DNA of 35,835 nucleotides from Lachnospiraceae bacterium MC2017 (GTDB lineage Bacteria > Bacillota > Clostridia > Lachnospirales > Lachnospiraceae). Every line of letters begins with the position of its first letter. Positions within the stretch are counted from its first letter, which is position 1. Made by a program: the position numbers and the translations under genes. Where the stretch lies: NCBI GenBank assembly GCA_000701625.1, contig JNJK01000040.1, positions 1 to 35,835 of the forward strand. Reading direction: 5' to 3'. Positions 11,941 through 24,266 of this stretch are shown in pieces. Under the pieces are notes generated by a model. The model saw only the letters and a list, made by a program, of their open reading frames with translations. It did no database searches and had not been told where the DNA came from.

Positions 11941-12021
11941 TACTACTCTATGGGGCAGGCATGAACAGGTATATCCGGAAAAGATTCGAATAGTTGTGAG
12001 CGAATAATGTGATGATTTAAG

Positions 12022-12059
12022 GCGGGATGCGTTAAAATGTGCATCCCGCTTTTGTTTTT
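12022..12059 (+). terminator. Terminator after glmS
   Basis: GCGGGATGC and GCATCCCGC form a perfect 9-base stem around a 10-base loop, followed by TTTTGTTTTT. Confidence 0.93.
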
Positions 12060-12092: not shown

Positions 12093-12310
12093 AATGAAGC
12101 GTCTGTTATTATATGTGGTGATAATGATAAACAGATCATAGAAAGTAATTTAAGATTGGCGTTTCATTTGATTCCGGGTCAAGGAAACTGGTAGGTTGGA
12201 AAGTGGCGGAATAAACGTTTCGTCCATCATTGTCCTGTGGTAAAATTGAGGTCGGCATAATACGGATAGACGCATACGGTTATAGAAATGTCAGGAAAGT
12301 GGAATACATA
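12093..12310 (+). other. Long leader before the polysaccharide operon
   Basis: About 218 bases without a gene. No GEMM-type c-di-GMP riboswitch core, JUMPstart/ops motif or clear terminator was found. It could hold an unrecognised control element. Confidence 0.45.
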
Positions 12311-13228
12311 ATGAAAGTTGCAGTTGTTCTGGTTACATACAATAGAATAGAATGCTTGAAGAAGGCGATTTCAAGATATGAATCTCAGACATTACTTCCC
12401 TGCTGCATGATAATTGTAGATAATGCCAGTAATGATGGAACATACGAGTATCTGGATTCCTGGAAAAATGAAAATAGTAGGATTGATAAGATAGTAATTC
12501 ATAATGAAAAGAATCTTGGCGGTTCGGGTGGCTTTTATACTGGATTAAAGGCAAGTTTGGATGTTGAGTGTGATTATGTATTTCTTGCAGATGATGATGC
12601 GTATCCTGATGCGGAAATGATAAAGACTCTCTTTTCCAATGCTAAGATCATTAATGATGATTCAACAGCTGCGATTTGTACATCTGTTATTAATCATGGT
12701 AAAATCGATATTTCTCATAGATGTCGTATAAAAAAAGGCATGTTTGCGATTAGCCTTAGTTGGGTTCCGGAAAGTGAATACAGCAGGGATTATTTTAAGC
12801 TGGATATTGTTACCTTTGTTGGGGCAGCCATAAAGAAAGAGATCATTAAACAGATCGGTATGCCTATCAAAGATTATTTTATATATTACGACGATACTGA
12901 GTATTTCATGAGGATATCAAAAGTTGGTAATGTCTACTGTATTCCGAAAAGCGTGATGGTCCATGATACCGATGCTATACAGTCAATTAATTCCTGGAAA
13001 GGGTATTATGATACAAGGAATTGGATTGATGCAGTGAAACGTCATTATGGAAGATATACATATTATGCAGTGTTTAATATGTATATACGGAGATGTTCTA
13101 TTTTAGCGGCTGTCCTAAAAAAGAGGAGCCGCAGTTATAGGAACATGTGTGTCTCCGCGATCAATGATGCGAGAAACGGGGTATTGGGTATCAATGAAAA
13201 ATATAGACCTGGCTATAAGATGGATTAG
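12311..13228 (+). CDS. GT2-family glycosyltransferase
   Basis: 305 residues from the ATG at 12311; an upstream TTG at 12230 in the same frame gives no family match. The N-terminus VVLVTYNRIECLKKAI and IIVDNASNDGTYEYL is the GT-A nucleotide-sugar fold. KNLGGSGGFYTGL and the metal-binding DDDAYPD follow, then the acceptor region with DYFIYYDDTEYFMRI. This pattern resembles GlfT2/rhamnosyltransferase-like GT2 enzymes that extend cell-surface glycans. It probably adds a sugar to the lipid-linked repeat unit exported by the flippase encoded downstream. It is the first gene of the operon, 27 bases before the next start. Confidence 0.88.
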   Translation: MKVAVVLVTYNRIECLKKAISRYESQTLLPCCMIIVDNASNDGTYEYLDSWKNENSRIDKIVIHNEKNLGGSGGFYTGLKASLDVECDYVFLADDDAYPDAEMIKTLFSNAKIINDDSTAAICTSVINHGKIDISHRCRIKKGMFAISLSWVPESEYSRDYFKLDIVTFVGAAIKKEIIKQIGMPIKDYFIYYDDTEYFMRISKVGNVYCIPKSVMVHDTDAIQSINSWKGYYDTRNWIDAVKRHYGRYTYYAVFNMYIRRCSILAAVLKKRSRSYRNMCVSAINDARNGVLGINEKYRPGYKMD

Positions 13229-13255: not shown

Positions 13256-15187
13256 ATGATTAAGAAAAGCATGCAAAAGATTGTTTATGACTTGTGTGCA
13301 AGAAATGCGGATGATATATATAAAGAAATCAAAAGAGCTCAGGTTATTTCGTTTGATATTTTTGATACACTGATAAAACGAAACGTGCCCAAACCCGAAG
13401 ATATCTTTTCGGTTGTTGAGCACCTTTATGATACGAAAAACAGGGTTAAATCTGATTATTGTAATAAGAGAATAAAAGCAGAAAACGTAGCACGTTCTCA
13501 AATTGACAGAGAAATTAATCTGGATGATATTTATAATTATTATGTCGGGAATGAGTCTGTCGAGGGACTTAAAAGTCTGGAGATTGATACAGAGATAAAG
13601 TTTTGTGTTCCTAATTATTCCATTATTGAAGTTTTTAATAGATGTATAAAGGATGGCAAAACAGTTTATCTGATATCGGATATGTATCACACAGGTGAAA
13701 CCATTCAGAAAATCTTAGACAAATGCGGCATAACCGGATACAAAAAAATGTATGTTTCATGCGATGAAAATAAGACAAAGGCAAGAGGAGACCTGTTTTT
13801 TCACGTAAAAAATGAAAACAATATAAAAGGTGAGTGGATTCATATTGGAGATTCGATCAGAGGGGATTATACAAATCCACGAAGGATTGGTATTAAGTCA
13901 ATTCTTATCAGGAGAAAATCTAACAGAAAACTTCTGATAAAACATTATGATAGCCTGTCCTCAAAACAATTGGTTTCTTTTATAACTAATCAGGAACCGA
14001 CAGGATATAATTATTATCAGAAGATCGGATATGAAATACTAGGACCGATTCTTTGCGGTTTTTCGTCTTGGTTGAAAGAACGATTAAAGGATAATAAAGG
14101 TAAGGTATTATTTCTGGCCCGTGATAGTAAACTATTGTTAGAGGCATATAAAATACTATATGAAGGTAATACGGAAGACTTTATATACTTTTATATTTCG
14201 AGAAAAGCATCTTTGAATTGTGTATTGGATTTGATAAATTCATATGATGAGATGATAGAATTGTTGGTACCTAAGGATGCGGATAGAGTCTTTGATCTTT
14301 ATGAGGCATTTAACATCCCTGAGGAACGTAGAAAAGAAATCAATAATAGTTTAGGAATTAATGAAGATATATATATTCATGACAAGGGTAATGGCATAAA
14401 CAAGGAAAGATTATTTGATGTACTTAAGAAAGAAGTTAGTACTGCGTCCTCGGAACAGAGAACTTTGCTAAAAGAGTATCTAAATGATTACGGGATTGGA
14501 AAGGATTTTTCTGTAGTAGATATAGGTTGGGAAGGCAGAACACAATGGGCTTTTCAACGATTGAATCAATCTGAAGGTGGAAATGTCAAAGGATTGTACT
14601 TTGGAATTATAAAGAAATATCCTAAGCTTACTGAGAAATTAGAGATGTCAGCTTATTTGGGTAGTTTAAAGAATACTGACAGGACTGCACGGGTTATAAT
14701 GGAGACGGTTGCTTTCTTTGAGACTTTATTCCTGAGTGATGAAGGAAGCACGATAGGATATGAAAAGGGTGCAGATGGACATGTGATCCCTAAAAGGAAA
14801 TCAGCTGACCAGAATGAAGGCAATTTGAAAATAGTTAAGATGATCCAGGGGGCTGCATTACAGTTTGTAAAGGATATCAAAGAAAGCCAATGTTTGGTGG
14901 ATACTATTAGTTGGGACTCTGAGCTTATCATGAAAATATATGAGGATTATACATTAAATCCAAGTACGGAGATGATAAGAAAACTTAGAGGAATACAATT
15001 TGTAGATAAGGACAGGAGAACTTTAGGAGCTAAGCATAATATATTATATTATGTCTTTCATTTAAGCGAGTTTCATAAAGATATTGCTAAATCGTTATAT
15101 AGAGTGTTCTTTCTGAAAGATGTCTTTAAGATTTCTATGCCCTATTTTGATATGCTTTATAAATTCTATTCAATTAAGCATAGATGA
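13256..15187 (+). CDS. Large HAD-superfamily protein of polysaccharide loci (COG5610-like)
   Basis: 643 residues. The N-terminal HAD domain carries motif I in VISFDIFDTLIKR, motif II around VYLISDMYHTG and motif III/IV in WIHIGDSIRGDYTN. After about residue 250 a second region begins (GPILCGFSSWLKERL, GKVLFLARDSKLLLEAYKIL, FSVVDIGWEGRTQWA). FLARDS and DIGWEG look like a second phosphate- or nucleotide-binding site, as seen in COG5610 proteins, which occur in capsule and EPS clusters of anaerobes. The exact reaction is unknown; dephosphorylation of a sugar- or lipid-phosphate intermediate is a guess. It is flanked by a glycosyltransferase and a flippase. Confidence 0.75.
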   Translation: MIKKSMQKIVYDLCARNADDIYKEIKRAQVISFDIFDTLIKRNVPKPEDIFSVVEHLYDTKNRVKSDYCNKRIKAENVARSQIDREINLDDIYNYYVGNESVEGLKSLEIDTEIKFCVPNYSIIEVFNRCIKDGKTVYLISDMYHTGETIQKILDKCGITGYKKMYVSCDENKTKARGDLFFHVKNENNIKGEWIHIGDSIRGDYTNPRRIGIKSILIRRKSNRKLLIKHYDSLSSKQLVSFITNQEPTGYNYYQKIGYEILGPILCGFSSWLKERLKDNKGKVLFLARDSKLLLEAYKILYEGNTEDFIYFYISRKASLNCVLDLINSYDEMIELLVPKDADRVFDLYEAFNIPEERRKEINNSLGINEDIYIHDKGNGINKERLFDVLKKEVSTASSEQRTLLKEYLNDYGIGKDFSVVDIGWEGRTQWAFQRLNQSEGGNVKGLYFGIIKKYPKLTEKLEMSAYLGSLKNTDRTARVIMETVAFFETLFLSDEGSTIGYEKGADGHVIPKRKSADQNEGNLKIVKMIQGAALQFVKDIKESQCLVDTISWDSELIMKIYEDYTLNPSTEMIRKLRGIQFVDKDRRTLGAKHNILYYVFHLSEFHKDIAKSLYRVFFLKDVFKISMPYFDMLYKFYSIKHR

Positions 15188-15242
15188 GTTTACGACCGCG
15201 AAGTCTGAATAGTCACTGGATTTGTATCATAGACAAAGAAAA

Positions 15243-18200
15243 ATGCAGAATAATAATTCGATTAAACACAATTTTATTATGAATGCCATCCTCACGATGT
15301 CATCCATGTTGTTTCCGATCGTAACCTTTCCTTATGTATCGAGAGTACTGACTCCGGTAGGTACGGGAAAGGTTTCTTTTTCGTTCTCACTGATCACTTA
15401 TTTTTTGATGTTTGCACAGCTTGGTATACCAACATATGGTATAAGAGTTTGTGCCAGTGTCAGGGATGATAAAGAGAAGCTCACACGTACAGCTCACGAA
15501 CTGCTCATGATAAATTTAATAATGAGTGGGATTTCGTACATACTGCTTTTTTTAGCGCTTATCTTTGTACCAAGGTTCTATGGAGACAGATTGCTGTATA
15601 GTTTAATGAGTGTAACTATTATTTTAGATACGCTCGGAATGGAATGGCTGTATAAAGCGCTTGAACAGTATACCTACATTGCAGCCAGATCGGTGCTTTT
15701 CAAATTCATAGCATTGATATTGATGTTTTTGATGATACATACAGAGAGCGATTATGTGATATACGGAGTTATATTTATTTTTGCCGCCTCAGCGTCAAAT
15801 GTTGTGAATTTTATCAATGCACATAAGCATATTAGTTTTAGAAACGTAAAGCATTATGATATAAAGCGACATCTGAAACCGGTAGGAATATTCTTTGCAT
15901 TGGCATGTGCGTCTACCATTTATACGAATCTTGATGCGCTGATGCTCGGATTTATGAAGGCGGACATCGATGTTGGCTACTATAATGCGGCAGTTAAGAT
16001 AAAAAATGTGTTGGTAAGCATAGTTACATCCCTCGGAGCCGTAATCCTTCCAAGAGCCTCCTATTATGTAGAAAATGGGGAAATGGAGGCCTTTAGGCGG
16101 ATATACCGAAAAGCACTCAATTTTGTCATGATAATAGCTGTGCCTGTGTCGGTTTATTTCACCATGTATGCAGAGGAAGGCATACTGTTTTTGTCCGGAG
16201 ATGCATATCATAATTCGATACTCCCAATGCAGATTATTTTACCGACAGTTATAATGATAGGACTGACAAATATCCTGGGTATTCAGATACTTGTACCACT
16301 AGGGAAAGAAAAAATCGTTCTGTATAGTGAGATAGTTGGCGCTGTAATAGATGTAATACTGAATATCCTGTTGATTCCGGGATATGGAGCGTCAGGTGCG
16401 GCAGTTGGCACTCTGGCAGCGGAAATCGCTGTTTTCGTTGTGCAGTTTATAGCTCTGAGGAAAGAGGTTATAGATGCATTTATTAAGATAAGTTACGGTA
16501 GGATAATAATTGCAGTAATTGCCGGATGCCTGACGGCAATGTTTGTAAAAAGCCTGGAATACGGCAATTTTATTACGCTTTCCATATCTTCAATCTTATT
16601 TTTTGGAGCATATGCGATAGTTCTTATAGTTATGAAGGAGAGTATGATGACAGAGATTTATCGAAGCGTTGTGGATAAGGCAGGAAAGATATCCGAACGT
16701 ATTATTTCGCTTATTGATTCAAGAGTGAGTGAAAGCATGCGGAAGGGGTCAGAAAGATTCTTTCTGGTGGTGATGACCTGCTATCTACTGTTCGTTTCTT
16801 TTATGATCACAGAGATCAAAATACCGTTTCCTGATAATATGTATACTCTGATGATGCTTCCGATGTTTTTAGCGGTAGTGCTTCAGTGGTTTACACATAT
16901 TAAGGATATAAAGAGGGTAATCATCGGCGGAGCGGTATTGGGATTATTCCTTATAGTCTATGTGACAAATATCCGGGAGTACAGTGGATATGGACACATG
17001 GTATTATATGCGCTTATGACAGCCGGATGCATAGGTATAGAGTTTCGTAAGCTCTTAAGGACGTGGATATATAGTATAGGTTCTGTCATAAGTATTGCGT
17101 TTCTGGCTGCTTCGATCGGTATCGCAGAGAATCTTGTATATTATGTAGGAGGATACAGACTTAAGCTCAGAGGAGCACTCGGTGTCTGGTATCCGACAGA
17201 CTGCGCGGCATGGATATTGTTTTTACTTCTCATATTGTGGATAGCATATAAGAAGTTGCCAAATGTGGTAATGCTCGTGCTGGTAGCAGTAGGAGCTGTC
17301 TTTACAAAGCTGTACTGTGACAGTAATAATACCACTATATGTATGCTTCTGTTTTTTGCTGCGATACTGTATTTAATGTTTGAGGAAAAGTTTATTGATG
17401 GCAGAGAGAAGCTTATATGGATAAAAAAGACGGTTACAGGTCTTGCGTATGCGGTGTTTCCTGTTGCAGCGGTCACAATGATAGCAGTGGTTGTGATGTA
17501 CGGAAAGGGTATCGGCATTGCGTACAAAATGGACAGGTATCTGCATGGACGAGCTAACTATGGTTGGAACGCATTAAAGGAGTATAAGATCACTCCTTTT
17601 GGAACGAATTTTGAAATGTTTGGCTTCGGAAGTGCTGTGATTACCGACAAGAAGGCCTACAATTTTTTGGACAGCTCATACGTTAATATCCTTATCAGGT
17701 ACGGGTTTGTAGTATTTATTGTTGTTGGTGTCATATGGTTTTACCTGATGCGTAAGGCTTCGAAGGCTGACAATAGGCGCATGCTTTTTGTCATGGCGAT
17801 AATAGCGATACATTCTTTTGAAGAACATCATATGCTCGACGTTATGTTTAATCCGCTTATACCTATGGTTTTGGCTGATTTTTCGTCGTTAGGCAAGAGC
17901 GGGTCAGAGGAAACGTCTTTAGATATCAGAAAGTATGCAGGATACGCTGCTGGATTCGTTGCAGCGGCGGGACTTTTGATCGCGGTTCCAAGGATATTCT
18001 CTATTATCAGGACTGTGATAGATATTGAGAATGCCTTGAAGGGCGAAGGTGCTGTATTTTATGGTCTTGCTTTGATAATTGTGATGCTCGTTTCCGTAGT
18101 TTTAGTCGTAGGCGGAATAGTTGTCATGGTTCAAAGTATCGTATATAAGAAGCATGATCATGTAAAAGGGATAGCATGCTGCGTGGCAGGCGCTTTTATC

Positions 18201-21008
18201 ACGGCAGTAATGTGTATTATCTGCAATGTCACGATAGCTGCGAAGAGCGAAGTATACGCAGAGAGAATAAAGGATGACAAGGCTGCGTTGGATATAATAA
18301 TCGCGGCAAAAGAGCACCCGTTGTATGCTTTGGATTATCCCGAGGTTTATAAGCAGGAATTTGGAATCTTTTCAGATACATTTTATTCTGAAGAGGATAT
18401 AGCGAGATGCCATAGAGCGACTGTCCTGCTGGACAGCACTAAGGAATCTAACTGCTTTGAAAACAGAGGCTATTTATATACACAGATTTCAGATCATACA
18501 GGTGTGTATACTAATGATGAAGCAGTGTTAACTGCCCTTGAGGATGCTGGATATCATATTACCGGATATTACAGTGCTGAAAGAGAAGTGCCTCTTGATG
18601 AAACGCTTAAAAGTGGTGAAAAATTTGCTGCATTCAGCGGAAGATACGTGGCAACGGCAGAACTGGAACTTGTTTCTTCAAAGGGTGATCCGGAAGGAAA
18701 AATAGGCGAACTCAGGGTAGACGCATATGATGATGCCAATGCAGTTGGTGCTGAGCCTGTAGCACTTTCTGATTTTAATAATGGAATTGCGACAGTTGAT
18801 GTAGTGTTTAATATAGGGACTTCTACGCCAAACACTGTGATCAGTGTAGTAAGTGAAGATGGCTATGATATAAATCTTAAATCCTTAAAGTACAGACTTC
18901 GGCCTAATCTTGATACGCATAAGCACTATAATGACATCTATCAGGTTATACGAAGCGAGTATTTTGACGCAGACGGAAACAGGATTACTGCGGGATCGGG
19001 TGAAGCAGCTGTAGAGTATGAATATGATGATAGAAGAAATAACAATGTGATCCGATATTACGGAATTGATTATAAGCCGCTGCAGATACCTTCGGGATAC
19101 GCCGAGATCCATAGGACATATAATAAAATGAGATATGTCGTCGCTGAAAGTTATTATGGTGTGGATGGAAAGCCTGTCGCACTCGGGTCAGGGCAGGCAT
19201 CGGAGGTCAGAAAGGTTGATGATCGTGGTAATATCACTGAGTCGAAGTATTTTGATGTGGACGGCAATCCATGCATGCTGACCGGCGGATACGCAGAGGT
19301 TCACAGGGAGTATGACGAAAAGAGCAAACTGATAAGAGAAGAGTATTACGACACCGAAGGCAAGCCTGTAATGCTTTCCGGCGGTTATGCGGCGTATTCT
19401 CGCATAAATGATGATGAAGGCAATGTTTTGAGTGAAAGCTATTATGATACTGATGGTAATCAGTGTCTGAATACTTCGGGATATGCCAAGGTTGAGCGTG
19501 AGTTTGATGACAATAACAATGCTGTTGTCCAAAGGTTCTACGGCGCGGACGGCAACCCATGTATTTGTACTTCAGGATATGCTGAGATCCATCGTGAATT
19601 TGATGAGTTAAAGAGGGTAACTTCTGAAAGTTACTTTGGCACAGATGGTAAGCCTATGGTCATTACTTCCGGCTATGCTCAGTTTAAGCGTGAGTATGAC
19701 TCTATGGGAAGGGTAACTAAAGAGAGTTACTTTGGTACAGACGGTGAGCCGATGGCACTTACTACAGGCCAGGCTTCTGATACGAGAGTTTATGACGCAA
19801 ACAGCAATTGCATAGAGCAGAGATACTTTGGGCCGGATGGAAACCCGGTCATCATAAATTCGGGTTTTGCTGAGATTCATAGGGAATTTAACGCAAAGAA
19901 TCAGGTTATAAAAGAAATATATTATGGAATTGATGGCAATATTATGAGTCTTACGTCAGGTTATGCCATGCTTGGACGCGAGTATGATGATGCCGGAAAT
20001 GTAATTTGCCAGATATACTATGATAAAGATGGTAATCGTGTTAATAGTACAAGTGGTTACGCAGAGTTTAGACGCAGGTTTAATGAGCAGAGACTGATTA
20101 CTGCCGAGAGTTATTTTGACACAGATGGTAATCCTGTTGCACTTAAAACAGGACAGGCATCGGATGAGAGAGAGTACGATGCGGCAGGTAATATGACTGC
20201 TCAGAGATTTTATGGAACAGATGGCAGGCCTGTAATTGTTTCTTACGGATATGCAGAGTTCAGACGTCAGTTTGACAGCAAGAAGAGGATTACATATGAA
20301 AGCTATTTCGGAGATGACGGTAAACCAATAGCACTTGAAGACGGACAGGCAGCGGAAAGGCGTGAATATGACTCATACGACAATCTGATACATGTTGTCT
20401 ATTATGGAACAGATGGAGAACCTGTGATCATCACAAAGGGCTATGCAGAGATTAGGCGCAAGTTTAATGATAAGCGTCAGCTCGTTGCTGAGAGTTATTA
20501 TGGAGTTGATGGAGAAACTATAGCAAATAACATGGGAATAGCTTCGGATGCAATAGAGGTTGATGATGTAGGAAATGCGGTTGCAGAGAAGTTCTATGAT
20601 GTCAGTGGGAATATGGCACTTCGTAGTGACGGCTTTGCAGAGGTACGCAGAGTATTCAACGGAAAGAGACAGGTTACTGCTGAAAGCTATTATGATACAG
20701 AGGGCAATCCGGCAGTGATCAGCACGGGACAGGCTTCTGTGACATATGATCTGGATGACAGAGGAAATGCCGTGGATGTGAAGTATTATGGAGTTAACGG
20801 AGACTTGATAATGCGTTCCGATGGATTCGCTGAGATCAAGCGTCAGTATAATGAAAAAAATAAACTTGTTCGTGAGGAATACTATGATATTGACGGAAAT
20901 CTGTCCGATAGGTCAGATGGTTTTGCATGGCGTGAGCTTGATTATGATGAAAACGGTAATCAGACTGCTGAACGCAGATATAACTCAAACGGAGTTATAA
21001 TAGAGTAG
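15243..21008 (+). CDS. Giant fusion: Wzx-type flippase, polymerase-like membrane domain, 32-residue repeat tail
   Basis: 1921 residues from the ATG at 15243 (a TTG at 15222 would add seven). Residues about 1-465 are a multi-helix polysaccharide flippase (MOP/Wzx superfamily; start region MLFPIVTFPYVSRVLTPVGTGKV, later NLDALMLGF). A second block of about ten or more helices (about 500-1010) includes RLKLRGALGVWYPTDCAAW, a loop with NYGWNALKEYKITPFGTNFEMFG, and RYGFVVFIVVG, which is reminiscent of O-antigen polymerases/ligases. Residues about 1020-1235 look extracytoplasmic and include a beta-rich segment (GRYVATAELELVSS). Residues 1240-1911 are twenty-one repeats of exactly 32 residues, YD/RHS-like. 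Known flippases are about 450-500 residues, so this is an exceptional architecture. The domain roles are inferred from helix pattern and motifs. Confidence 0.8.
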   Translation: MQNNNSIKHNFIMNAILTMSSMLFPIVTFPYVSRVLTPVGTGKVSFSFSLITYFLMFAQLGIPTYGIRVCASVRDDKEKLTRTAHELLMINLIMSGISYILLFLALIFVPRFYGDRLLYSLMSVTIILDTLGMEWLYKALEQYTYIAARSVLFKFIALILMFLMIHTESDYVIYGVIFIFAASASNVVNFINAHKHISFRNVKHYDIKRHLKPVGIFFALACASTIYTNLDALMLGFMKADIDVGYYNAAVKIKNVLVSIVTSLGAVILPRASYYVENGEMEAFRRIYRKALNFVMIIAVPVSVYFTMYAEEGILFLSGDAYHNSILPMQIILPTVIMIGLTNILGIQILVPLGKEKIVLYSEIVGAVIDVILNILLIPGYGASGAAVGTLAAEIAVFVVQFIALRKEVIDAFIKISYGRIIIAVIAGCLTAMFVKSLEYGNFITLSISSILFFGAYAIVLIVMKESMMTEIYRSVVDKAGKISERIISLIDSRVSESMRKGSERFFLVVMTCYLLFVSFMITEIKIPFPDNMYTLMMLPMFLAVVLQWFTHIKDIKRVIIGGAVLGLFLIVYVTNIREYSGYGHMVLYALMTAGCIGIEFRKLLRTWIYSIGSVISIAFLAASIGIAENLVYYVGGYRLKLRGALGVWYPTDCAAWILFLLLILWIAYKKLPNVVMLVLVAVGAVFTKLYCDSNNTTICMLLFFAAILYLMFEEKFIDGREKLIWIKKTVTGLAYAVFPVAAVTMIAVVVMYGKGIGIAYKMDRYLHGRANYGWNALKEYKITPFGTNFEMFGFGSAVITDKKAYNFLDSSYVNILIRYGFVVFIVVGVIWFYLMRKASKADNRRMLFVMAIIAIHSFEEHHMLDVMFNPLIPMVLADFSSLGKSGSEETSLDIRKYAGYAAGFVAAAGLLIAVPRIFSIIRTVIDIENALKGEGAVFYGLALIIVMLVSVVLVVGGIVVMVQSIVYKKHDHVKGIACCVAGAFITAVMCIICNVTIAAKSEVYAERIKDDKAALDIIIAAKEHPLYALDYPEVYKQEFGIFSDTFYSEEDIARCHRATVLLDSTKESNCFENRGYLYTQISDHTGVYTNDEAVLTALEDAGYHITGYYSAEREVPLDETLKSGEKFAAFSGRYVATAELELVSSKGDPEGKIGELRVDAYDDANAVGAEPVALSDFNNGIATVDVVFNIGTSTPNTVISVVSEDGYDINLKSLKYRLRPNLDTHKHYNDIYQVIRSEYFDADGNRITAGSGEAAVEYEYDDRRNNNVIRYYGIDYKPLQIPSGYAEIHRTYNKMRYVVAESYYGVDGKPVALGSGQASEVRKVDDRGNITESKYFDVDGNPCMLTGGYAEVHREYDEKSKLIREEYYDTEGKPVMLSGGYAAYSRINDDEGNVLSESYYDTDGNQCLNTSGYAKVEREFDDNNNAVVQRFYGADGNPCICTSGYAEIHREFDELKRVTSESYFGTDGKPMVITSGYAQFKREYDSMGRVTKESYFGTDGEPMALTTGQASDTRVYDANSNCIEQRYFGPDGNPVIINSGFAEIHREFNAKNQVIKEIYYGIDGNIMSLTSGYAMLGREYDDAGNVICQIYYDKDGNRVNSTSGYAEFRRRFNEQRLITAESYFDTDGNPVALKTGQASDEREYDAAGNMTAQRFYGTDGRPVIVSYGYAEFRRQFDSKKRITYESYFGDDGKPIALEDGQAAERREYDSYDNLIHVVYYGTDGEPVIITKGYAEIRRKFNDKRQLVAESYYGVDGETIANNMGIASDAIEVDDVGNAVAEKFYDVSGNMALRSDGFAEVRRVFNGKRQVTAESYYDTEGNPAVISTGQASVTYDLDDRGNAVDVKYYGVNGDLIMRSDGFAEIKRQYNEKNKLVREEYYDIDGNLSDRSDGFAWRELDYDENGNQTAERRYNSNGVIIE
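18960..21005 (+). repeat. Exact 96-base coding repeat, 21 units plus a partial
   Basis: Units start every 96 bases from 18960 to 20880, with a truncated unit at 20976. The consensus has YYGxDGxP at the start, GYAE or GQAS in the middle, then REYDxxGN and ES at the end. There is no insertion or deletion between units. The last eight or so units alternate between GQA-type and GYA/GFA-type, a 64-residue super-repeat. The units differ freely at DNA level, so the array is old and kept by selection. Confidence 0.93.
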
Positions 21009-21171: not shown

Positions 21172-22542
21172 ATGAATTACAGAGATGAACAGGAAATTGA
21201 TTTGATCGATCTTTGCATGCAGATTTTGAAAAAGTGGAAACTGATCTTAGTGTTCATGCTGATAGGTTTGGTATTAGGTGGTTCAGTTGGCTTTATTAGG
21301 ACGCAGACTGTTGACTCCGAGACATTAAAGCCGATTGATGATAAAGAGACTGTTTCACAAAATCTGGAAGAATTGAAAGAAGAGCTCTCAGATAGAGAGG
21401 TTACAGAGACGGAATTAGCAGTTGATGCTTATCGATCTTACAAAAAGCTTTATTCAGACAGATTAAATTATGGAAAAAAATCCATAAGAATGAAGCTGAA
21501 TGCTGAGAGTGTTCCTACACTTAATGCAACATATATTATTGGTGACTACTATGAAGTAACTTATCCTACTATCGATAAAGCAACCTGCATCAATAATATA
21601 ATAAAGATTTATTCAGATAAACTATATGACAGACCGGTTGTGGATGAGGTTTCAAAGGCTCTTGGTGGAAAGATCGCTGAGACATATGTAAGAGAACTGT
21701 ATTCTGTTTATTTAACAGGTGATAGTATTCTAAACATCACAGTAACGGCAAGATCCAAGGAAGAGTGTCAGACTGTTATGGATGTTCTTGAGAAATACTT
21801 CGAAGAGGCTGTTCCTTATGCGAAAGAACAGTGTTCTCATAGTATAAAATACCTTAATACTAACTATTCAAGGAATATGAGTACAGGTTTGATTTCAGAA
21901 CAAAAGGGACAGACAGACACGCTGGAAGCACTTGAAAACAGTATGATTTCAGCAAGTTCATCTCTTACAGCCGATCAGAAAGCATATTTTAAGGCGCTTA
22001 TTGATGATGAATTTAGCAATGAACATGATATCATCGTTGTCAGGAAATTTAGTCTGAAATTTGCAGCGCTTGGTCTTGTGGCAGGTGCATTTCTTGTGAT
22101 GGCATTTGTATGTATCACATACGTTTTATCTCAGGCTATTAAGACTAAGGATGAGATCACCAGCCTATTTGGAGTTAAGCTTCTTGGTGTACTTAATGAC
22201 AAGGCAGAGGGTGAGCTTGGAATGATCGCTGCAGGTGCAGGTCTTGGTGCTAAAAAGGCTAAGGTAAGTAAGGTCTACATCACAGGTTCTCTATCTGATA
22301 AGACTGTTTCAGATTCTATTGCACAGATGGTTGACGCGATCAAAACGAATTATAGTGATCTCGTCATTGAGAATGGTAATTCTATTCTGAGCGATCCTGC
22401 ATCATTTGCATCGCTTGCAGAGTCAGAGGCTGTGATCTTTGTTGAGAAGCTTAGACAATCTAAGTATGATGATATTGCAAAAGAAATCGAGATCGCAGGG
22501 AATTATGAAGTGAAGGTTCTCGGTGCAGTTGTTGTGGAATGA
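21172..22542 (+). CDS. Wzz/YveK-type chain-length determinant with kinase-like C-terminal domain
   Basis: 456 residues. The N-terminus EIDLIDLCMQILKKWK leads into a first membrane helix (about 24-43). A long extracytoplasmic region follows, then a second helix at about 295-316 (LGLVAGAFLVMAFVCITYVL). This is the polysaccharide co-polymerase layout. It should set polymer length with the Wzy partners on either side. After the second helix about 125 residues remain. They read KVYITGSLSDKTVSDSIAQMVDAIK, then SEAVIFVEKLRQSKYDDIAKEIE and VKVLGAVVV, the fold pattern of a ParA/BY-kinase domain. The Walker A lysine loop is missing, so it is probably catalytically dead. No separate BY-kinase is present in the window. 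Confidence 0.82.
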   Translation: MNYRDEQEIDLIDLCMQILKKWKLILVFMLIGLVLGGSVGFIRTQTVDSETLKPIDDKETVSQNLEELKEELSDREVTETELAVDAYRSYKKLYSDRLNYGKKSIRMKLNAESVPTLNATYIIGDYYEVTYPTIDKATCINNIIKIYSDKLYDRPVVDEVSKALGGKIAETYVRELYSVYLTGDSILNITVTARSKEECQTVMDVLEKYFEEAVPYAKEQCSHSIKYLNTNYSRNMSTGLISEQKGQTDTLEALENSMISASSSLTADQKAYFKALIDDEFSNEHDIIVVRKFSLKFAALGLVAGAFLVMAFVCITYVLSQAIKTKDEITSLFGVKLLGVLNDKAEGELGMIAAGAGLGAKKAKVSKVYITGSLSDKTVSDSIAQMVDAIKTNYSDLVIENGNSILSDPASFASLAESEAVIFVEKLRQSKYDDIAKEIEIAGNYEVKVLGAVVVE

Positions 22543-22637: not shown

Positions 22638-24266
22638 ATGCTTAAGAAAAAAAACCAAGTAAAAGAACTGATGTCGTTCAAGCTTCTGAAAGAATTTATA
22701 GGAGTCTATCTGGCATTTTTCTTTCTGCTGTTTCCGCTTTATTATGAGAGGAATTACCTGCATATCGGAATTGTAAAGTGGAAGATATTCAGAAACTTTA
22801 CGATTTATATAAGAATGTTTGGCAAACCGATCCCGTCAGCGCTTGGAGTTATGGTCGTGCTGTTCCTGCTCCATATGAAGGCATTGGGTAAGACAGGAGA
22901 GAGAGCAAAATTCTGGAAATCGGTTTCTAAGACCGATATCTGTGTCCTGACATACATAGTTGTGTGCTTTGTTGCGACACTTCTTACACCTTTTAAGAAA
23001 AATGTATTTATGGGTCACAGCGGATGGTTCTGCGGACTTTTATTCCAGATTACAATAGTACTTCTGTATTTCTTTATATCCAGGTACTGGAGATGGGACG
23101 ACATCATGTTTATGGCGTACCTTGGTGCGTCGGCAGTGGTGTATTTGTTAGCAGTATTTCACCGCTTCAGCATTGATCCTTTTAAGTTTTATGATGGTAT
23201 TTCCGAGACAGAAAAGAGAACATTCCTGTCAACGATCGGACAGAATACATGGTACTCGAGCTACCTCGTGATAGCATTTCCGATAGGGCTTTTTGCTTTC
23301 TGGTATGTTAAGAAAAAAGCGTACAGGATCGCGACATTTTTATACTTGGTACTGGGTGCGATGACTATCGTCACACAGGATTCGGATAGCGCTTTTTTTG
23401 CTCTTTTTGCTATTATCTGCGTGTTATTCGCTGTGTCTTTCAGATCAAATGAGTATATGATAAGATTTTTTGAAAGTCTTGTTGTGATACTTACGACATG
23501 GCGGATAGTAGGATTTATGCAGCTTATTTTTGCAGACAGTGTTCTTACAACCGGAAAGATCATGCTGTTTTGCAGTCAGAATAACATTATGTGGATACCT
23601 TGGGCTGTGTCCGTTGCAATGTACGTGCTTTTAAGAAAGCTTGAAAAAGATCACAAGCTTGACGTGACGAAATATAACTGGATCGCTAAGGCATTCATAG
23701 GTGTAGCTGTTCTTGGAATAGCAGCAGTTGTCATCTACATTGTACTGAACACCACAGGTGCTCTTCCGGAAGGCATGAGAAGCTCAAATAACTATCTGCT
23801 TTTTGATGATTATTGGGGAAATCATCGTGGCTTTAACTGGAAGATGGCTGTAAATACATATATCGCCGAGTCAAAAGATTATCCGTGGATGGCGCTTATC
23901 GGCGGTGGACCGGATACATATATGGAATCAAACACTCTTTATTTCGAAGAGCAGATTAAAGAGTTTTTTAAGACTTACACCATACAGTCGGCACACAATG
24001 AATTCCTGACGGAACTTGTATGGGGCGGAGCATTGGGACTTGCAGCATATGTAGGTATTTTTGTAACAGCAATGGTAAGATATTACAAAAAGTCTGTAAA
24101 GAACCCGGAGCTTATTGCGGTGGTTATGGCGATCGCAGGATATATGGCGCATAACTTTTTCTGTTATCAGCAGGTGGTCTGCACACCGACGATCTTTATC
24201 ATCATCGGAATGGGTGAGTGCATCGCCAGAATGGGTGAACTGAGACTTATATCTGATGGAGGCTGA
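22638..24266 (+). CDS. O-antigen ligase/polymerase (Wzy_C family)
   Basis: 542 residues with about 12 membrane helices. The characteristic large outer loop lies at about residues 375-475. It contains NNYLLFDDYWGNHRGFNWKM, then GGGPDTYMESN, and then SAHNEFLTELVWGGALGLAAY. The R-G-x-x-W and H-N-E-F-L motifs are those of WaaL/Wzy-type enzymes, which join lipid-linked glycans to each other or to an acceptor. It is the second polymerase-like protein in this locus, the first being the middle of the giant fusion. GGGAG lies about 15 bases before the ATG. The next gene follows after 35 bases. Confidence 0.87.
   Translation: MLKKKNQVKELMSFKLLKEFIGVYLAFFFLLFPLYYERNYLHIGIVKWKIFRNFTIYIRMFGKPIPSALGVMVVLFLLHMKALGKTGERAKFWKSVSKTDICVLTYIVVCFVATLLTPFKKNVFMGHSGWFCGLLFQITIVLLYFFISRYWRWDDIMFMAYLGASAVVYLLAVFHRFSIDPFKFYDGISETEKRTFLSTIGQNTWYSSYLVIAFPIGLFAFWYVKKKAYRIATFLYLVLGAMTIVTQDSDSAFFALFAIICVLFAVSFRSNEYMIRFFESLVVILTTWRIVGFMQLIFADSVLTTGKIMLFCSQNNIMWIPWAVSVAMYVLLRKLEKDHKLDVTKYNWIAKAFIGVAVLGIAAVVIYIVLNTTGALPEGMRSSNNYLLFDDYWGNHRGFNWKMAVNTYIAESKDYPWMALIGGGPDTYMESNTLYFEEQIKEFFKTYTIQSAHNEFLTELVWGGALGLAAYVGIFVTAMVRYYKKSVKNPELIAVVMAIAGYMAHNFFCYQQVVCTPTIFIIIGMGECIARMGELRLISDGG

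Follow-up and report, generated by a model that had tools for sequence, protein, structure and literature searches.

A candidate natural fusion of a Wzx-type flippase and a Wzy-like polymerase with a 32-residue repeat array in Lachnospiraceae bacterium MC2017

The closest described counterparts of the protein studied here are the Wzx flippases of the MOP superfamily (PF01943), e.g., the teichoic acid subunit flippase TacF, and the Wzy polymerases of the Wzy/O-antigen ligase superfamily (PF04932). Two outer loops with arginines have been described for Wzy, and RX15G motifs have been described for the Wzy proteins of Shigella and Pseudomonas (PMC12004945). Wzy and Wzx are also described in oral streptococcal capsule and receptor-polysaccharide clusters (PMC10986556, PMC2147599). 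A Wzx-Wzy-Wzz super-complex has been proposed, for which experimental evidence is currently lacking according to a 2023 paper (PMC10030265). No report of a natural Wzx-Wzy fusion was found in the titles and abstract openings of the open-licence literature matches listed. The protein described below shares with the Wzx flippases the sequence family and the conserved residues of its N-terminal half; unlike most of them, which are encoded in frames of <600 codons, it continues into a polymerase and a stalk. With the Wzy proteins it shares conserved arginines in two long loops, a profile match, and a wzx-like gene near its relatives, but it has no direct Pfam match in this part and adds helices, an outer domain, repeats, and the fusion to a flippase. 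Both halves are of known kinds; the joint with the repeat stalk is a new variation on them.

Analysis of contig JNJK01000040.1 of Lachnospiraceae bacterium MC2017 (35,835 nucleotides, here called the window) revealed a single unbroken frame at 15243-21008 on the forward strand, the strand of all window features given here. The first-pass annotation had described an uninterrupted frame of 5.8 kb that unites a flippase and a polymerase-like protein with an outer domain and a repeat array, both predicted to be on the outer side, and this description was borne out. The frame comprises 1921 codons counted from the ATG; an alternative TTG start at 15222 would add 7 residues upstream of the ATG at 15243. 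The encoded protein (P0001) begins with the Wzx-type flippase half (residues 1-465; 15243..16637), which is followed by a linker that is cytoplasmic by prediction (residues 466-505; 16638..16757) and by the Wzy-like polymerase half (residues 506-895; 16758..17927). Three further membrane helices, which would lead the chain outside (residues 896-1004; 17928..18254), precede an outer domain in two parts (residues 1005-1120, 18255..18602, and residues 1121-1239, 18603..18959), the repeat array (residues 1240-1911; 18960..20975), and a ten-residue tail with the stop codon (20976..21008). The segment boundaries thus lie about where they had been placed. The middle segment had been taken as one polytopic unit; it is polytopic, but it splits into a polymerase core (506-895) and the three helices (896-1004), at which the family-average hydropathy peaks (901, 941, and 976).

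The fusion gene is part of a gene run. It is preceded by a family 2 glycosyltransferase gene (12230..13228, start codon uncertain; PF00535, 9e-18) and a gene for a protein of 643 residues that appears HAD-like by eye and has no Pfam match at 0.01 (13256..15187). It is followed by a gene for a Wzz chain-length determinant (21172..22542; PF02706, 5.9e-6, 27 bits, cut-off 25.5) and by one for a separate O-antigen ligase/polymerase-like (Wzy_C-like) protein (22638..24266; PF04932, 1.3e-4, 22 bits, below the cut-off of 31.7). A terminator-like hairpin of 14 pairs with a T run lies ahead of the run (12019..12052); the scan found 10 such sites versus 6.5 (sd 2.3) in shuffles, so that this site is no proof of a terminator.

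The same layout was found in a second species of the genus. Lachnospiraceae bacterium MA2020 (JQKK01000004.1) carries all parts of P0001 in one frame at 54% identity (1896 codons from the first start codon, 1889 from the matching ATG; 20 repeats). Identity is highest in the flippase (68%) and lower in the linker (40%, gapless), the polymerase (52%), the extra helices (28%), part 1 (56%) and part 2 (33%, 1121-1235) of the outer domain, and the repeats (54%). Third codon positions are the most diverged class in seven of seven segments. In other loci, wzx and wzy genes lie only a few bases apart, so that one indel could join them in an assembly. The MA2020 genome record, however, has the same joint with a linker that has diverged without gaps. 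Because a second species carries this layout in one frame at 54% identity, an artefact of assembly or sequencing, be it a frameshift or the loss of a stop codon, is effectively refuted as the origin of the fusion. A fragment of the repeats was also seen elsewhere in MA2020 (G004:C19:22690-22947, in L035); it is 56% identical to residues 1829-1915 of P0001 and contains one internal stop.

The flippase half was identified by a domain search, in line with the first-pass annotation. PF01943 matches residues 9-273 (E 3.5e-28, 99.2 bits versus a curated cut-off of 28.2), and TacF (PDB 9xzn) matches the half with an E value of 1e-33. Of 47 columns conserved at ≥90% among 21 relatives, the MA2020 fusion among them, 46 are kept in P0001, the exception being I27V. 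A flippase tree with 31 members places the two fused ones in a clade of their own (100/100), with separate flippases of Lachnospiraceae around it; the closest of these is 67% identical. By its sequence, this half is a member of the Wzx/MOP family, and it is predicted to flip.

The polymerase half was assigned through its relatives and through profiles. Neither residues 480-1245 of P0001 gave a Pfam or NCBIfam family at E 0.01, nor did the polymerase half and its MA2020 partner give any Pfam family beyond a chance-level match to YebO (E 0.4). When contigs were searched with the middle sequence by itself, no relative was confirmed; a later search with a four-row alignment found 90 loci, of which 80 were kept. 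Most relatives are stand-alone proteins about 400 residues long (380-460) that lack a flippase; they occur in 26 of 298 other family genomes (at most the best three candidates per genome scored) and also in Streptococcus, Lactobacillaceae, and Clostridia. Among 59 aligned sequences, PF04932 was matched by eight and TIGR04370 (oligosaccharide repeat unit polymerase) by one at E ≤0.01. Comparison by hhalign of this family with 14 other polymerase-like proteins, 13 of which match PF04932, gave a probability of 89.5% (E 2e-6, 182 columns). The control comparison with flippases gave 0.8%, which rules out that the middle segment is an ordinary extension of the flippase family; it belongs to a separate, Wzy-like family. 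No match to the polymerase was found in plasmid records, and neither the polymerase profile nor the polymerase-plus-outer-domain profile had a sequence match at E 1 among solved structures. A 247-residue frame in L043 (8308-9051, minus strand), perhaps a remnant, has two pieces 50% identical to the P0001 polymerase half.

Comparison of the aligned sequences revealed five residues that are invariant in all 59: G647, R770 (17550..17552), Y806, D810 (17670..17672), and G821. P0001 also keeps R643 (17169..17171; 55 of 59), H863 (41 of 59), and E861 (36 of 59). R643 and R770 sit in two long loops, and D810 shares the large loop of R770. In both fusions R770 is followed by 16 residues and then G787 (R770-X16-G787), so that the RX15G motif is not matched exactly. 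The two loops were placed outside by helix counting, and charge does not decide the placement. The topology is weak because three of the twelve helices are our inference and because the long loops placed outside have family-average Lys+Arg counts (5.9 and 5.8) as high as those of loops placed inside. R643 and R770/D810 may tentatively be assigned to two outer loops, as described for Wzy. Taken with the relatives and the profiles, these residues are consistent with a Wzy-like half (Wzy_C superfamily) that would act as a polymerase.

The outer domain has no Pfam match. Its second part is perhaps beta-rich, as judged by eye, and its first part also occurs on this polymerase in other species. In the 299 family genomes, matches to the outer domain were limited to the window's own and two polymerase proteins. 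The 32-residue array that had been noted before proved exactly periodic, with 21 gapless units (consensus Yyg.DGnp.....GyA...ReyD...n...e.). Self-identity of the array is 0.345 at lag 32 (z 28.7) and 0.419 at lag 64 (z 35.9), against a mean of 0.066 (sd 0.010) in 1000 shuffles; units are closer to the next but one (42%) than to the neighbor (35%). At the DNA level the copies have diverged: Tandem Repeats Finder yields one trivial 13-base row there, and a repeat search finds paired copies spaced by multiples of 96 bases, most pairs being 60-85% alike. The resulting stalk has 76 kDa and is acidic (net charge -41), with 8.9% Tyr.

YD/RHS repeats have a period of about 21 residues. The P0001 repeats share with them (PF05593, TIGR01643) a Tyr/Asp/Gly pattern, but differ in their period of exactly 32 and in that the array runs to the C terminus with no domain after it. 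The designation "YD-type" is a loose fit: related arrays in L066 and L068 match PF05593 above the cut-off, whereas whole P0001 matches no RHS/YD model, and its repeat piece alone reaches 15.9 bits against TIGR01643 (cut-off 15.8) and gives no match to PF05593. Solved structures contained no sequence match to the repeats at E 1, and plasmid records gave one weak match, to a Streptomyces DUF6531 protein (24% identity).

The repeats were found in 9 of 299 family genomes, the window's own included (at most the best three candidates per genome scored). Four of the nine encode proteins consisting of a membrane helix, repeats, and VanZ (L069:5700-6923; L070:8531-9934, minus strand; L071:9099-10181, minus strand; L072:10812-12005); VanZ was identified by Pfam in L069 (PF04892, 6.9e-19) and by eye in the other three. 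Two encode TIR-TM-repeat proteins recognized by TIR models in Pfam (L067:7565-11776, minus strand; L068:7258-10764), and one (L066) encodes a membrane protein whose match to DUF6056 stays under the cut-off. Another of the nine, G155 (L073), gave a weak repeat match (E 6.8e-4) and was dropped since no ORF matched. In the genus, TM-repeat proteins occur in two genomes (L038 and L045); the L038 frame shares 41 bases with the frame that follows, provided that the latter starts at its first start codon. Among the class genomes, one has a TIR-TM-repeat protein (L228:4418-8188, minus strand; TIR by eye) and another a repeat-bearing polymerase (L227). Outside the polymerases, the proteins that bear the repeats are thus anchored in the membrane, and some of their clusters resemble polysaccharide clusters by eye. 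The VanZ and TIR proteins resemble P0001 in having related repeats on a membrane protein and differ from it in having other partner domains and no polymerase. The TIR-TM-repeat proteins (L067, L068, and L228) are possibly envelope-sensing. In polysaccharide pathways, VanZ is reported to lie beside flippases or to be fused to them, and Lipocone domains are reported to occur together with MORN or beta-propeller repeats (PMC12419801). Because all of these are membrane proteins that bear a repeat array, a binding module is favored as the role of the repeats.

The joint itself is rare. The flippase-polymerase fusion was found in 2 of 48 genus genomes (at most the best nine candidates per genome scored), the window's own and that of MA2020. 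Apart from the doubtful case of G035 described below, no fusion besides the window's own was detected in 299 family genomes (at most the best five candidates per genome), and no further one in 391 class genomes (at most the best two); because the number of candidates per genome was so small, rare fusions may have escaped these searches. Elsewhere the two parts are separate, as the first-pass annotation had stated: a separate flippase gene is present in 40 of the 80 polymerase loci, within 300 bases in 22, and by hand count a flippase match (E 1e-30) lies within 20 kb in 12 of 26 polymerase-bearing family genomes, among which the flippase of G238 is itself fused to another part. The accompanying statement that neither protein carries YD/RHS-like repeats did not hold, since five relatives from Butyrivibrio and kin (L107, L110, L114, L120, and L227) share with P0001 the polymerase, the outer domain, and the same 32-residue repeats. 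None of the five has a flippase, and the first four have 2-10 repeat units compared to 21 in P0001.

The 80 loci hold 83 polymerase frames, of which 71 are polymerases alone (L125 and L134 are counted here, although their length hints at additional parts), seven have the outer domain, four have the outer domain and repeats, and one has all parts. In the polymerase tree (59 rows), the 13 outer-domain rows form one group (100/96), inside which three repeat-bearing rows and the two fusions form one group (100/99) and the two fusions a group of their own within it (100/100). L125 and L134, which were labelled outer-domain in the tree by length and gave no match, both fall outside the main outer-domain group. 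The tree nests the layouts in the order polymerase, plus outer domain, plus repeats, plus flippase; the repeats need two changes on it because L107 has repeats and its sister L108 has none. This order suggests that the fusion was built from parts that still exist separately.

Other joints of flippase or polymerase parts were also observed. In 92 family genomes, 108 of the 112 flippase matches lie in frames of <600 codons and four in frames of >600 codons: the window's own, G238 (Wzz-like), G206 (LicD; PF04991, 4e-32), and G339 (methyltransferase-like C terminus by eye). Two flippases of one clade (L124:6257-9058 and L198:4662-7457) have a C terminus that appears Wzz-like by eye, with a polymerase gene next to them; Pfam gave no Wzz match in L124, L198, or the G238-type C terminus. 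Flippase joints to LicD were read in L197 (4262-6616, minus strand; Pfam) and to a methyltransferase-like domain in L213 (3456-5753) and L214 (3673-5628; both by eye). Polymerase-like domains are joined to DUF1972 (L036:11720-14782, minus strand) or to a GT4 glycosyltransferase domain (L099:1393-3825), and a polymerase with outer domain (L113:9044-12391) has about 330 extra N-terminal residues, acyltransferase-like by eye, in which Pfam found nothing. The recurrence of such joints suggests, and does not prove, contact between these steps.

The genome of the window has a second locus with the order wzyA-wzx-wzyB (L219:4852-8607; G000:C20), and a query from this locus matched all 48 genus genomes. 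Seven such loci were read. Four show three whole neighboring genes, wzx is broken in L217, L218 runs up against the end of its contig, and a joint wzx-wzyB frame of 841 residues is read in L221 (G035). This G035 frame (L199/L221:3419-5944), with PF01943 above and PF04932 below the cut-off, was set aside as a doubtful second fusion because the two genes overlap or abut in relatives, so that a lone indel in this one draft assembly would suffice to merge them. The other Wzx/Wzy genes of the cell and the second ligase/polymerase-like gene in the window imply that the fusion need not be the only polymerase.

We consider it probable, though well short of certain, that P0001 is a natural fusion of a flippase and a polymerase in a Wzx/Wzy-type surface-polysaccharide pathway, which would flip a unit, hand it over, and polymerize it. 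The N-terminal half would turn an undecaprenyl-diphosphate-linked repeat unit, made inside, to the outer leaflet. The 40-residue inner linker would tether the polymerase half, which could take over the flipped unit locally and add the growing chain onto it in a pocket on the outer side that includes R643, R770, D810, and perhaps E861/H863. Three more helices would lead the chain out again, and the outer domain and the 21-repeat stalk would project from there. Wall polymer or nascent glycan is the probable binding partner of the stalk, which would thereby position the machine or guide the chain; that the stalk holds or guides the glycan, or serves as an acceptor, had been proposed before and is retained here as a suggestion. 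The neighboring Wzz and glycosyltransferase genes were counted in favor of this reading. Set against it are the missing direct model match, the inexact RX15G motif, the restriction of the joint to two species, and the partial conservation of E861/H863.

A smaller but appreciable probability is given to a middle half that is a transferase of the O-antigen-ligase/O-oligosaccharyltransferase type, moving the flipped glycan to wall, lipid, or protein; the tyrosines of its own repeats may be the target. Pfam calls Wzy_C "O-Antigen ligase", the predicted protein O-transferases WsaB and WsfB carry Wzy_C, and the S-layer glycan of P. alvei is on tyrosine (PMC2943079). The tyrosine content of the repeats would suit such an acceptor, and the separate Wzy_C-like gene at 22638-24266 could then be the polymerase. 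However, the relatives are single genes, half of the 80 loci have a separate wzx-like gene, and streptococci and lactobacilli are among the hosts. Moreover, the same repeats are borne by VanZ, TIR, and other membrane proteins without this enzyme, a point in favor of a binding function over that of an acceptor. A bolder version of the fusion, in which the flipped unit passes on without any release into the membrane and the Tyr-rich stalk acts as template, ruler, or covalent acceptor with the polymer held on the enzyme, strikes us as improbable. It is also unlikely, if somewhat less so, that one half is a passenger, the flippase domain serving only to anchor or recruit while another Wzx flips, or the reverse. 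The wzyA-wzx-wzyB locus and two weak flippase matches on C14 of the same genome could supply that other Wzx, but the flippase half is the best-conserved part of P0001 and keeps nearly all conserved columns of its family, and the polymerase half keeps R643, R770, D810, E861, and H863.

The fused flippase and polymerase, kept as one chain in two species, fix the ratio of the two at 1:1. With the fusion, testing whether the lipid-linked unit is handed over directly becomes possible on a single protein, and, as the tree suggests assembly from parts that are still separate, the intermediates can be compared one by one. The protein also draws attention to an outer domain outside the Pfam families and a 32-residue repeat common to polysaccharide and TIR-type membrane proteins.
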